From: Terriglobia bacterium
Lineage (GTDB): Bacteria > Acidobacteriota > Terriglobia > Acidiferrales > UBA7541
Length of the DNA stretch: 62,609 nt
Reading direction: 5' to 3'
Assembly: GCA_020073585.1 (NCBI GenBank)
Contig: JAIQEV010000020.1
Location: 1 to 62,609, forward strand
Position numbers and translations under genes: made by a program. The number at the start of each line of letters is the position of its first letter. Within the stretch, counting starts at the first letter, position 1. The notes under the pieces are model-generated. The model saw only the letters and a program-made list of their open reading frames with translations. It made no database searches and had not been told where the DNA came from. Positions 2,099 through 28,365 of this stretch are shown piece by piece.

Positions 2099-2936
2099 GC
2101 GCCCCATCCCGGACTCCCGCTTCGGAATCCTGATCCATTTTTTCCAGAGCGTACAAAGCCGCGCCCATCGCTCCCGCAAAATGCGCCAGCGGGCTGATCT
2201 GCAGTTTCATTCCCAGTACGTCCTCCAGCGCCTTCACCATCCCCACGTTGCGCGATACCCCGCCGGTCATGGTGATCGCCGGCTCCACCGGCACGCGCCG
2301 CGCCAGCGAGATCGTCCGCCGCGCAATCGCCAGGTTCACCCCGCTCAGCACGTCTTCCGCCTTCTTCCCCTGCGCCAGATAGGAAAGAATGTCCGACTCC
2401 ACGAACACCGTGCACACTGTCGTGATCTTCACCGGATTCTTGCCCTTCAGCGAAAACGGCCCCATGTCGTCCAGCGGCATTGCCAGCACGTCGGCGGCGT
2501 TGGCCAGAAACCGCCCGGTCCCCGCGGCGCATTTGTCGTTCATCACGAAATCCAGCACGTTCCCCTCCGCGCCGATGCTGATGGCCTTGCTGTCCTGCCC
2601 CCCCATGTCGATCACCGTGCGCGTGTTCGGAAAAAGAAAATGCGCGCCGCGCGCGTGGCAGCTGATCTCCGTCATCTGCGTGTTGCCGAACTGGATTTTG
2701 TACCGCCCGTAGCCCGTGCCCACCACGTAGCCCACCTGCTCCGGCGCGATGCCCGCTTCCTTGCAGGCCGCCAGGAAACCGTTCTCCCCGGCTTTCTGCA
2801 CGTTGGCCCCGGTGTCCACCAGCGCGCTGGCGATCATCTTCTTCTCGCCTCCGTCCGCCTGCATGATGACCGCCTTGGTCTGCGTCGATCCGACGTCCAC
2901 TCCCGCTGCATAGCGCATCGCTTTCACCTCGCTCAT
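2076..2936 (-). CDS. BcrA/BadF-like ATPase subunit of a class I benzoyl-CoA-reductase-type enzyme
   Basis: 286-residue BadF/BcrA-family ATPase. Motifs seen: DVGSTQTK (14-21), IDMGGQDSK (109-117), and the paired cluster cysteines in NDKCAAGTG (Cys136) and TVCTVFVES (Cys175). The start at 2936 overlaps the stop of the upstream B-type gene by one base (TGATG), a sign of translational coupling. An open frame extends further upstream but lies inside the B gene and is not family-like. With the D-type subunit it should form the ATP-driven electron activase. Homodimeric activators of 2-hydroxyacyl-CoA dehydratases look similar; the presence of two different ATPase genes favours the heterodimeric reductase type. 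Confidence 0.87.
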   Translation of the reverse strand: MSEVKAMRYAAGVDVGSTQTKAVIMQADGGEKKMIASALVDTGANVQKAGENGFLAACKEAGIAPEQVGYVVGTGYGRYKIQFGNTQMTEISCHARGAHFLFPNTRTVIDMGGQDSKAISIGAEGNVLDFVMNDKCAAGTGRFLANAADVLAMPLDDMGPFSLKGKNPVKITTVCTVFVESDILSYLAQGKKAEDVLSGVNLAIARRTISLARRVPVEPAITMTGGVSRNVGMVKALEDVLGMKLQISPLAHFAGAMGAALYALEKMDQDSEAGVRDGAHGTNRGN

Positions 2937-4276
2937 CAATTCAATACCCTCAGTTTCGGGCTCGCCGTCGGAACCATGGGGATGCCCGAGCCTGCCTTTC
3001 CGGCGCTCAGTTGCGCGGCCGTGCGCGCCGGTGCGTGCCCCAGCGATTCGAAAAAGGCGTCCATGCGGTTCTTGATCTGCGCTTCGGAGAAGTAGCGCGG
3101 GTCCTCGATGTCCGACTCCAGATACAGCGTGGGAATGCCCAACTCCTTGGTGAAGTAGTCGCGCATGTCCCCTTGCCCCGCGGAAAACAGCCGGCAGCTC
3201 TTCACGAAGTGGATGATCAGCCCGTCGGCGTCCCACTCCTCCACGTACCGCCGGATCTGGTCGTAGCGCTGCAGGTAGTTGCGGTTGGTCACGTTGTTCT
3301 CGATCATGTGCAGCGCGATGGCCTCAAACGGCTCCTGGGGATCGTGCCGGAAGCCGAACTCCCACAGGCCCCCCACCGTCGAATACGTCGAAGCCACGGT
3401 GCACGCCCCCCACTTCGCGAACATGTCCCGGAACGTGCGAAAGAACGGATACGGCGGCGGCCCTTCCAGCACCACTCGGAATTTCTCCTTTTCGAATGGC
3501 CCCTGTCCCCGTTCCACCATCTGCTCGTATTCCTTCAGCGCCACCTCGAAAAAGTGCACCCCCCGGGGATTCGCGCGATAGACGTACAGCGGCCCCATCA
3601 GCGAGATGGCGTCGAAGTACGCGTCATAGGGCGACGGTTTCTTCTTCGAGAGATGCTTGATGCGCGACCACAGCTCTTCCACCCGCGCCGAATTGCGCAC
3701 CGCCTCCCGGAAACGGTCCATGTCGAATTTCTTCCCGGTGATCTGCTCCAGTTGCTTCACCAGATCGTGCAACTGCCGCACCACGTAAGCCACGTCATCC
3801 TTGCTCGGCGTATCGGTGCGCAGAAACGGCACGTCCAGCATGAACAGCGGCGATTTCTGGAACTCCGCGATGTGCTCGAACCATTTCGTGTACACGTTGC
3901 AGCCCACGAAGTTGCATAGCGCCAGCGCGGCCACCGGAAGCTTTCCTCCGGCCGGCGTGATGCCCTTGACCATCGCCCCGATATCCGCCTTCACGTAGGC
4001 GCAGTTGTCCGTGGCGTAACCCATCTCCTCGGCCACCAGAATCGGCTCCAGCGATTGCCGCCGGATGGCCAGTTGCAGCGCATTGACCTCCGGATAGAGC
4101 GGCAGCACGTCGAACGCCTCCAGCAGCTCGATGCAATTGCCGGATATCATCAGCGACACCGCCGGCGGCTTCCCCGTCGTCGCCGACTCGTCGAGCTTCT
4201 GGTACCACTCGACCATCATCTCCTTCTGCAACTGGTGGATCTGCCCGCGATAGTCGCTCTTTTCGGTGTTGGACAT
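2936..4276 (-). CDS. BcrB/BadE-like substrate-binding subunit (2-hydroxyacyl-CoA dehydratase/benzoyl-CoA reductase family)
   Basis: 446 residues, the usual length for the larger FeS subunit of class I benzoyl-CoA reductases. Candidate cluster and substrate-site cysteines are visible in SGNCIELLEAF (Cys48), CNFVGC (Cys121, Cys126) and FVKSCRLFSAGQGD (Cys361). The middle region EGPPPYP and GGLWEFGFRHD follow the family layout of two Rossmann-like halves. It should sit with the C-type subunit and accept electrons from the A/D ATPases for ring reduction of an aryl-CoA. It follows the C-type gene after about 18 bases. The exact substrate (benzoyl-CoA, a hydroxylated analogue or another cyclic acyl-CoA) cannot be read from the sequence. 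Confidence 0.85.
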   Translation of the reverse strand: MSNTEKSDYRGQIHQLQKEMMVEWYQKLDESATTGKPPAVSLMISGNCIELLEAFDVLPLYPEVNALQLAIRRQSLEPILVAEEMGYATDNCAYVKADIGAMVKGITPAGGKLPVAALALCNFVGCNVYTKWFEHIAEFQKSPLFMLDVPFLRTDTPSKDDVAYVVRQLHDLVKQLEQITGKKFDMDRFREAVRNSARVEELWSRIKHLSKKKPSPYDAYFDAISLMGPLYVYRANPRGVHFFEVALKEYEQMVERGQGPFEKEKFRVVLEGPPPYPFFRTFRDMFAKWGACTVASTYSTVGGLWEFGFRHDPQEPFEAIALHMIENNVTNRNYLQRYDQIRRYVEEWDADGLIIHFVKSCRLFSAGQGDMRDYFTKELGIPTLYLESDIEDPRYFSEAQIKNRMDAFFESLGHAPARTAAQLSAGKAGSGIPMVPTASPKLRVLN

Positions 4277-26199: not shown

Positions 26200-26466
26200 T
26201 CAACGCCGCGCGCGCTTTCCCTCCATCGCTTCGCGCAGCAATTTGTTAATCCGGGTCTGATAGCCTTTCCCGCGGCGCTTCAGCCAAGCCAGTACATCGG
26301 CATCCACGCGAATGGTCACCGGTCTCTTGATCGGCCGGTAAAACTTCCCCACCACCGCCCCCCGCCACTCCCGCATTTCGGGTGCGTCCGTCAAATCGAT
26401 TTTCTCGTCCGGCATCCGCGCCAGCGATTTCAGCTCTTTGGCCTGTTTCTTAGAGACCTTCTTCAT
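26200..26466 (-). CDS. brnA: BrnA-family antitoxin without a BrnT partner
   Basis: 88 residues from the ATG at 26466. The C-terminal half is a BrnA-like ribbon-helix-helix: KRPVTIRVDADVLAWLKRRG (residues about 48-67), then KGYQTRINKLLREAME. The N-terminal half is basic then acidic (KKQAKELKSLARMPDEKIDL). BrnA normally represses and neutralises the RNase toxin BrnT encoded just upstream. Here the gene directly upstream (37 bases) is the AhpD-like protein, and no BrnT is within reach on either side. It may be a stand-alone regulator or a leftover. The 260 bases between this gene and the TPR regulator show nothing. Confidence 0.82.
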   Translation of the reverse strand: MKKVSKKQAKELKSLARMPDEKIDLTDAPEMREWRGAVVGKFYRPIKRPVTIRVDADVLAWLKRRGKGYQTRINKLLREAMEGKRARR

Positions 26467-26503: not shown

Positions 26504-27100
26504 CTATCCCCCGAGGTAGCCGAAGCGGGCGAGGCGTTTGCCGGATTCCGCGAATTCCTGCGGGGAGAGGGCGTGAACGCCGGCGCCGTCGCACCAGCGA
26601 TTATAGAAATTGAAGAGGCTGCAGACGGTGATGGCGTCGTAGACGGCTTCGTCGGGCCAGCCGGCGGCTTTGAGCGCGTCCGCGTCCTGCTGGCCGATCC
26701 CGTGCGGCTGGTCATTGAGTTTTTCGACGAAGGCAAAGAGGGCCTTTTCGGGCGCCGAGAGAGGCGAAGAACGGAAGTCGCGAAGAACCGCGTCCACCAG
26801 TTCCCGGTCGCCGAGGAGTTCCGCCGCACCGGCGGAATGGGTGCCGGTTCAAAACGGGCAATGGTTGCGGCTGGAGGTGAAAGCGGAAATCAATTCGCGC
26901 ATGCCGGGGGAGAGCGGCGAGGGGCCGCGCATGACTTCCTGGGTATAGCGCTCGAGATGGGCCGTGGCGCCGGGCTTGAAGGCAAACATGTGGAAAATCT
27001 GGGGGACGCTCCGGCCGGCTTCGCGCATTTTGGCAATCATTTTGGCGCGGGATTCGCTGCCCAGCGCCTGTTCCACGTCTTTCAGGTACATGGGTTCCAT
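26504..27100 (-). CDS. AhpD-like/carboxymuconolactone decarboxylase-family protein, probable selenoprotein (in-frame UGA)
   Basis: An AGGAGG site 6 bases before the ATG at 27100 starts a frame that runs to 26504 with a single internal TGA at 26851-26849. On both sides the protein belongs to one AhpD/CMD-family domain. The internal TGA is codon 84, in the redox motif: CPF-TGA-TGTH corresponds to CxxCxxxH, so TGA stands exactly where the second Cys belongs (Cys81-Pro-Phe-Sec84, His88). Read through, the product is 198 residues, a normal length for a peroxidase-related AhpD-like protein (SSRNHCPF before, GAAELLGDRELVDAVLRDF after). An RNA hairpin ACCGGC/GCCGGT follows the UGA directly and might act as SECIS. 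AhpD-like selenoproteins are known in other bacteria. A plain nonsense mutation or sequencing error from TGC/TGT is the alternative. A gene caller would split this into two pieces. Confidence 0.78.
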
Positions 27101-27265
27101 GGAGGGCCTCCTGTGAGCCGGCGTGCGCGGCGGGCGTTGCCCAGCCGCGCTTCGCGAGATGACGCTGCAGGGTAGCAGAAAATCGGAAGCAATGGGAATG
27201 GCCGCCGCGCGCGGGGACGCATCCCGCGGGGGCGCAGGCAAGACGGAAAGAAAAAGAAAGACGGG

Positions 27266-28117
27266 CTAGGCGGAGGCGTGGTCTTCGGCGAGGAGGTGCG
27301 GGGGCACGGGGCGGAGGTCGCGGACGATGCGGACCCAGGACATGACCTTGAGCACGTAGTAGGTGATGTCCACCTCCCACCAGAAGAAGCCCTGGCGGGC
27401 GGCGGCCATGTAGTGGTGGTGATTGTTGTGCCAGCCCTCGCCGAGGGTGACCAGGGCCAGGACGAAATTGTTCTTGCTGGTGTCCGTGGTGAGATAGCGG
27501 CGCGAGCCGAAGAGGTGCGAGAGCGAATTGATGGTGAAGGTGCCGTGCCAGAGGAGCACGGTGCTGAGGCAGAAGCCCCACAGGAAAAGACCCCAGCCGC
27601 CGATGAGAAAGAGCGCCACGGCGAGAACCACGGGGGGCAGGAGATGATATTTGTTGAGCCAGCGCAGCTCGGGAAATCTGGCGAAGTCGCCGATGTATTC
27701 GATGCGCGTGTCGTTGTACATGTCGGAGATGAACCAGCCGACGTGGGACCAGAAGAAGCCGAAGAGCGTGGGGGAGTGCAGATCCTCGTCGGTATCCGAA
27801 TAGCGGTGATGATGGCGGTGATGGGCGGCCCACCAGAGGACGCCCTTCTGGCTGGAGGACATGGCCATCCAGGCGATGACGAACTGGAAGACGCGGCTGG
27901 TCTTGAAGGAGCGGTGCGCGAAGTAGCGGTGATAGCCCGCGGTGACGAAGAACATGCGCACCCAGTAGAGCGCCAGGCAGACGATCAGATACGACCAGTG
28001 AAATTTGACCCAAAAGACCGAGAGTGCGGCCAGGTGAATCAGCGCAAACGGCAGGGTATGCAGTATGGAAATGCGCGAGCCATTCGGCAGGGGTATGAAT
28101 AAGGCCCGTGAAGCCAT
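27266..28117 (-). CDS. Acyl-CoA desaturase (delta-9, SCD/OLE1-like)
   Basis: 283-residue membrane desaturase with all three histidine boxes: HRYFAH (63-68), HHRHHH (99-104) and HNNHHH (230-235), which hold the diiron centre that inserts a cis double bond into an acyl chain. Hydrophobic segments (residues 20-60 and 160-195) place it in the inner membrane. It should adjust membrane fluidity and needs oxygen and electrons; no reductase is adjacent. ATG at 28117 fits the family start (PNGSRISILHTLPF). Two earlier in-frame starts exist but add an unconserved leader. Confidence 0.92.
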   Translation of the reverse strand: MASRALFIPLPNGSRISILHTLPFALIHLAALSVFWVKFHWSYLIVCLALYWVRMFFVTAGYHRYFAHRSFKTSRVFQFVIAWMAMSSSQKGVLWWAAHHRHHHRYSDTDEDLHSPTLFGFFWSHVGWFISDMYNDTRIEYIGDFARFPELRWLNKYHLLPPVVLAVALFLIGGWGLFLWGFCLSTVLLWHGTFTINSLSHLFGSRRYLTTDTSKNNFVLALVTLGEGWHNNHHHYMAAARQGFFWWEVDITYYVLKVMSWVRIVRDLRPVPPHLLAEDHASA

Positions 28118-28365
28118 CCAGCGAGTTTCCTTTGCGTCCTGACGGATGAGGACTGATAATCTTGCGCCAACCGCGAGCGCGCAACCTGCCGGAAACGCCG
28201 TCACGAGTAAGCAGGATAAGTTTACGGGGCGGGGGGAGGCGGGTCAAGGAATGGTTGCCGGGGGGTAACCTGTGCGGCGCGCGCACGGATATGTTATCGT
28301 CACGACGGGCGCGGAAGTTTGCGGCTGCGCCGCCGCGCAACGCGGCTGGAAGGGTGAATCGAGCG

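Follow-up and report, generated by a model that had tools for sequence, protein, structure and literature searches.

A predicted AhpD-like selenoprotein with a Cys-x-x-Sec motif in a Terriglobia genome

The locus and its reading frame

The window, i.e., the whole stretch of 62,609 nucleotides that was analysed, comes from a Terriglobia bacterium (contig JAIQEV010000020.1 of assembly GCA_020073585.1). The gene studied here and the features around it lie on the minus strand:

26504..27100, minus strand: AhpD-like (CMD / TIGR01926 peroxidase-related) gene, a predicted selenoprotein gene of 198 residues with UGA84 read as selenocysteine (Sec), plus the stop codon TAG
26849..26851, minus strand: UGA codon 84, the probable Sec of the redox motif C81-P-F-U84, placed by the frame and by homologous sites
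26819..26837, minus strand: candidate SECIS hairpin UUCCGCCG-GUG-CGGCGGAA, 8 bp, loop 19 nt after the UGA, -12.2 kcal/mol
27107..27112, minus strand: Shine-Dalgarno sequence AGGAGG, 6 nt 5′ of the ATG
27266..28204, minus strand: fatty acid desaturase (PF00487), upstream neighbour, assigned by Pfam
26200..26466, minus strand: BrnA-type antitoxin (PF14384), downstream neighbour, assigned by Pfam

The frame runs from the ATG at 27100 to the TAG at 26506-26504 and is open apart from a single in-frame TGA at codon 84. Read through, it gives a product of 198 residues with the motif C81-P-F-U84-T-G-T-H88 inside the AhpD/CMD domain. Three matches span the TGA. The first is PF02627 (CMD) at residues 44-109, with 30.2 bits and a gathering cut-off of 23; the second is TIGR01926 at residues 6-169, where 111.8 bits against the curated cut-off of 81.8 places the protein in that family. 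The third is PDB 3c1l at residues 15-170 (E 1.4e-20). If the UGA were taken as a stop, the gene would be split in two. A sequence-only reading of this DNA had proposed Sec at 26851-26849, in one AhpD/CMD domain whose second motif Cys is replaced by the TGA (Cys81-Pro-Phe-UGA, His88), with frame and homology unbroken on both sides and an AGGAGG site (27112-27107) before the start. These particulars are borne out, and the proposal itself is supported by the machinery, the homologues and the SECIS element.

The next two orthologues, at 91% and 74% identity, both have TGA at codon 84. The dN/dS ratios, taken from the computed dN and dS values, were ~ 0.21 before and ~ 0.23 after the UGA for the 91% pair (L025), and 0.20 and 0.35, respectively, for the 74% pair (L026). 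The stretch 3′ of the UGA behaves like translated sequence under purifying selection. The earlier argument that a random nonsense change would hardly fall on this very codon is strengthened by the shared TGA and by the low ratios on both sides of it.

Codon 84 and the selenocysteine machinery across genomes

Homologues were found in 70 of the 101 genomes in the search of relatives, and at E ≤ 1e-25 in 103 of the 399 genomes in the class-wide search, in which at most eight candidates per genome were scored, so paralogues may be missing. A site was counted when 60 bases before and 75 after the codon start were available, which drops pieces at contig ends, and merging of identical sites reduced 171 to 170. 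Codon 84 was TGA at 114 of these distinct sites, TGC at 46 and TGT at 7 (Cys at 53 altogether), and something else at 3; neither TAA nor TAG occurred among the 170. UGA or Cys, the alternatives that an alignment of homologues had been expected to show, therefore stand at 167 of 170 sites. Of the other three, L153 reflects an alignment shift and actually reads CPF-UGA, L176 has Ser, and the last belongs to a weak secondary match within L053. The close group (≥ 130 bits) contained 75 TGA and 18 Cys sites, plus L153 and L176, and all such UGA and Cys counts are phylogenetically non-independent. The same TGA recurs in independent assemblies at 91%, 74% and 47-63% identity. This is the pattern by which a selenoprotein is recognised, i.e., an in-frame UGA replaces a conserved redox Cys, and Cys homologues exist. 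A scan of the genome-contig collection gave a single locus, L024, whose encoded protein is identical to that of L026.

Some loci differ from this general picture. L176 (genome G121) has Ser at the Sec/Cys place, in the motif CEFS, and G121 has no selA or selB match. L124 (G134) carries two distinct AhpD-like genes with an in-frame TGA, at 515-940 and 2501-3079, ~ 1.6 kb apart and 29% and 55% identical to the window protein. L079 and L174 hold tandem Cys-type AhpD paralogues (CFYC, CYFC, CYYC, CFFC), which form a separate clade without UGA.

The source genome (G000; 4.03 Mb in 113 contigs, 96.7% complete, 3.3% contaminated) has selA, selB, selC and selD, for which a search had been advised. The selB gene (C108:14865-16745, 359.7 bits) encodes the C-terminal SelB winged-helix domains, selA is located on C30 (555.5 bits), and tRNA-Sec (selC), with the anticodon TCA, on C17. 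There are two selD genes, at C56:62495-63427 (L020) and C45:18594-19559 (L021), 43% identical over the compared part; each has an in-frame TGA, located near the N-terminus of the protein in the context AG-UGA-A. selB is also present in the nearest relative (G009, an assembly of ~ 10 contigs), whose orthologue is 91% identical, and this argues that the machinery of the source genome is not a mere contaminant. We also observed that the DNA around the selD copy on C56 has a G+C content of 0.585, compared with 0.61-0.67 in five other loci, and this copy could be foreign or a contaminant. Just after it, at the contig end, lies a second selB start of ~ 43 residues (C56:63577-63702, L007), beyond which the SelB match is lost; it is a fragment or an assembly edge.

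The UGA form was then compared with the machinery in a cross-table built on class-wide matches at E ≤ about 1e-40, in which the Ser form (G121/L176) is listed with Cys. Among the 72 genomes with a close UGA form, selB was over the cut-off in 67. The other five, assemblies of ~ 390 to 990 contigs, have selA, over the cut-off in four and as two pieces under the cut-off in one. In 17 genomes, every close form is non-UGA (Cys in 16, Ser in 1); selB is present in 7 of these and absent from 10. The selA search gave no match in those ten genomes (9 Cys, 1 Ser), one of which, G354, is only 55% complete. Fisher's p for the UGA form versus selB was 7e-6, with kinship ignored. Two genomes, G218 and G233, have both UGA and non-UGA forms. 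As many as 206 of the 310 remaining genomes have selB, so selB alone does not predict the gene. In the search of relatives, a more distant match with an in-frame TGA was present in 55 genomes, four of them without selB (G006, G020, G058 and G063); selA was over the cut-off in three of these four. For G058 (59% complete), which has a distant UGA homologue, neither selB nor selA was matched, and this genome counts against the Sec reading.

Taken across genomes, the comparison shows conservation of the UGA, presence of the machinery, a hairpin of the SECIS type and interchange of Cys and UGA at the same place. It is very improbable that the UGA works as a functional stop ending an 83-residue product, or that it is passed by leaky or regulated read-through with an ordinary tRNA. 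In favour of such a reading, a shortage of selenium is expected to cause some termination at Sec codons, and the hairpin could be a generic stimulator. However, where the codon at this catalytic position is not TGA, it nearly always encodes Cys (53 of 56 sites), and in the ten genomes that have a close homologue but neither a selA nor a selB match, it encodes Cys in nine and Ser in one. A pseudogene or a sequencing error, with an AhpD gene disrupted by a chance mutation of TGC to TGA or by a miscall, is harder still to believe: a TGA in an otherwise open frame does resemble a nonsense change and the assembly is a draft of 113 contigs, but the TGA is shared by the independent assemblies mentioned above, purifying selection persists 3′ of it, no TAA or TAG stands at any of the 170 sites, and UGA tracks selA/selB. 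Genome-wide recoding of UGA as Trp or Cys, in the manner of genetic code 4, has only the in-frame UGA itself in its favour and is just as implausible, since the genome has a dedicated Sec system and the gene has one UGA codon, which aligns with Cys and not Trp.

The hairpin downstream of the UGA

In the published bacterial SECIS model, as stated in a 2026 review (PMC13188914), a stem of 4-16 bp closes a loop of 3-9 nt with G in its first two positions; the UGA-to-loop distance is 16-37 nt, and the folding energy is at most -7.5 kcal/mol. The hairpin at 26819-26837 fits this model in stem (8 bp), loop (GUG), spacing (19) and energy (-12.2 kcal/mol), and an alternative reading of its bases gives 7 bp around a GGUGC loop. 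A comparison of the bases after the UGA with such a model had been suggested together with another hairpin, ACCGGC/GCCGGT, which the sequence-only reading had placed directly after the UGA while counting the nearness of its loop as a point against. That hairpin (26828..26848, minus strand) can indeed be drawn, but we rejected it as the SECIS. Its loop is 6 nt from the UGA and fails the spacing, it overlaps the stronger 26819-26837 hairpin so that both cannot form together, and the 74% orthologue has ACGGGC, with one pair broken. The objection about the loop falls away with it, the loop of the more probable element being 19 nt from the UGA.

Counting unbroken stems only, and with the three sites that are neither TGA nor TGC/TGT left out, the model was matched at 108 of 114 UGA sites versus 6 of 53 Cys sites. 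For 72 close UGA sequences, 425 of the 432 stem cells were paired, versus 65 of 108 for 18 close Cys sequences; the window-type trio, whose register is shifted, is excluded from this count. In the 72 sequences, the stem surrounds GGUC, AGUU and similar loops, with some double changes from C-G to U-A. The window and its two nearest relatives keep four of the six common stem pairs as G-C and one as G-U, and offer an alternative stem that is longer and displaced in the 3′ direction.

The folding statistics are less distinctive. Over the 62 nt that begin at the UGA, the fold is no more stable than that of dinucleotide shuffles (z 0.14), and an Rfam scan of 26700-27000 found no SECIS, the only match being to an miRNA at E 2.3. 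In synonymous recoding (L017), 9 of 200 recodings (0.045) did at least as well as the hairpin, which is only moderately unusual on this measure. Values at or under 0.05 were obtained for 8 of 75 close UGA sites, 30 of 39 distant UGA sites and 2 of 53 Cys sites. The weak signal in the close group implies that the G+C-rich codons for H-A-A-V-A-A-E account for some of the hairpin. Given the shuffle result and the few recoding hits in the close group, the case for the hairpin rests mainly on the contrast between UGA and Cys sites and on the distant group.

Function, known relatives and history

We consider it close to certain, on comparative sequence evidence, that the product is an AhpD-like selenoprotein with a single domain, belonging to the TIGR01926 peroxidase-related family, with SelB-mediated Sec insertion at position 84 and a CxxU redox pair. 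SelB with Sec-tRNA-Sec would bind the hairpin just 3′ of the UGA during translation, and Sec would be inserted at position 84. The resulting CxxU pair, Cys81-Sec84, would stand beside Glu69 and His88, which by spacing occupy AhpD proton-relay places. Most likely, a Cys-Sec selenenylsulfide cycle would enable the protein to reduce peroxides or to serve as a thiol/selenol redox adaptor. Both the insertion itself and the enzyme activity are what we infer from the comparison.

Glu69, Cys81, His88, Asn164 and Arg168 are present in 76 of 76 close UGA loci, and Pro82 in 63 of 76; the count takes L024 and L026 as one gene and skips L153, L176 and L045. The relay of M. tuberculosis AhpD is described as Glu118, Cys130, His132, Cys133 and His137 (PMC3141380). 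Matched by spacing alone, E69, C81, U84 and H88 have counterparts in it, and the place of His132 is taken by Phe83. According to the same source, PA0269 has Tyr at that place and weak peroxidase activity (PMC3141380). Our best guess is a peroxidase or redox-adaptor role via the Cys-Sec pair.

The neighbourhood gives no firm inference on function. The desaturase also lies upstream of the orthologue in two genomes of the same genus (L025; L026/L024), whereas the regions flanking the other fetched loci gave no desaturase match at E 1e-5. As a neighbour it would suit lipid peroxides as the substrate, a thought for which the evidence is thin. The BrnA-type antitoxin was not found in the flanks of other fetched loci and is not part of the system. 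At many other loci, TonB-receptor-like frames lie beside the AhpD gene on either strand, and a functional link between the two is possible. At 11 loci, the AhpD match is preceded on its own strand by such a frame, with 5-55 bases between the end of the frame and the match, as in L127, L149, L151, L152 and L155 (UGA) and L163 and L168 (Cys); the window has none. Pfam named the frame in L174 only (OMP_b-brl_4 + CarboxypepD_reg).

The protein is a further member of an already known selenoprotein type, AhpD-like CxxU; the sequence-only reading had noted that AhpD-like selenoproteins occur in some bacteria. The Sargasso Sea study of 2005 reported 27 AhpD-like CxxU sequences (PMC1088965), and the Global Ocean Sampling study of 2008 counted 299 Sec forms of AhpD-like 1 and 70 of AhpD-like 2 (pfam02627), the latter against 207 Cys forms (PMC2398784). 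TIGR01926 and a CMD-like protein, both with CxxU, are tabulated in the 2026 review together with NF041238 (PMC13188914). Our protein shares with the listed TIGR01926 selenoprotein the curated family and the CxxU motif; the likeness is one of family and motif, and the clade described here belongs to Terriglobia and has mostly Pro82. With AhpD-like 2, it is likened by domain and motif, both having the CMD domain PF02627 and CxxU (PMC2398784). NF041238 (AhpD_rel_CFYUT), described as a (seleno)protein with CFYUT, has a related AhpD domain, but the protein lies outside that family, scoring 32.6 bits against a cut-off of 175 and matching only positions 214-335 of the 357-position model. The Cys-type structures PDB 3c1l (Mlr4105), 6k40, 2oyo, 2pfx and 2prr are homologous over most of the chain (E 1.4e-20 to 7.9e-13), and in the alignments of 3c1l, 6k40 and 2oyo, Cys stands where the window protein has Sec. 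For Acidobacteria, one tabulation gives three families and four selenoproteins (PMC1794560), another study tested one Acidobacteriota genome with three selenoprotein genes (PMC12013277), and the term Acidobacteri- does not occur in the text of PMC13188914. In a limited literature, judged by title and the opening of the abstract, we found no published work on AhpD selenoproteins in this group, which leaves absence unproven.

The homologue set is large and well sampled, with UGA and Cys versions and with genomes that have or lack the machinery, which makes it possible to trace how Sec was lost and how the SECIS decayed. In a tree of 107 homologues with the codon-84 site masked, L024 left out and every row without a stop labelled Cys (also the Ser form), 6 changes of the UGA/Cys label are required compared with a shuffled mean of 26.4, and at least 4 changes are forced by well-supported branches. 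The Cys rows among close UGA rows are a 12-row clade, L161, L032 (weakly supported in its placement), a 4-row clade to which the Ser form belongs, and L063. This suggests repeated Sec-to-Cys replacement within the close group, the direction of change being deduced from a midpoint root only. Loss of the machinery cannot be the only cause of the switch, as 7 of the 17 non-UGA genomes still have selB. A broader scenario, which we give an even chance, is that the AhpD-like selenoproteins of this class of soil bacteria form an unusually large and old set, in which Sec gave way to Cys several times, partly as selA/selB were lost, and the SECIS pairing decayed after each switch. In the same scenario, the three-species clade of the window would have moved the register of the hairpin from GCCGC/GCGGC around GGUC to UUCCGCCG/CGGCGGAA around GUG.
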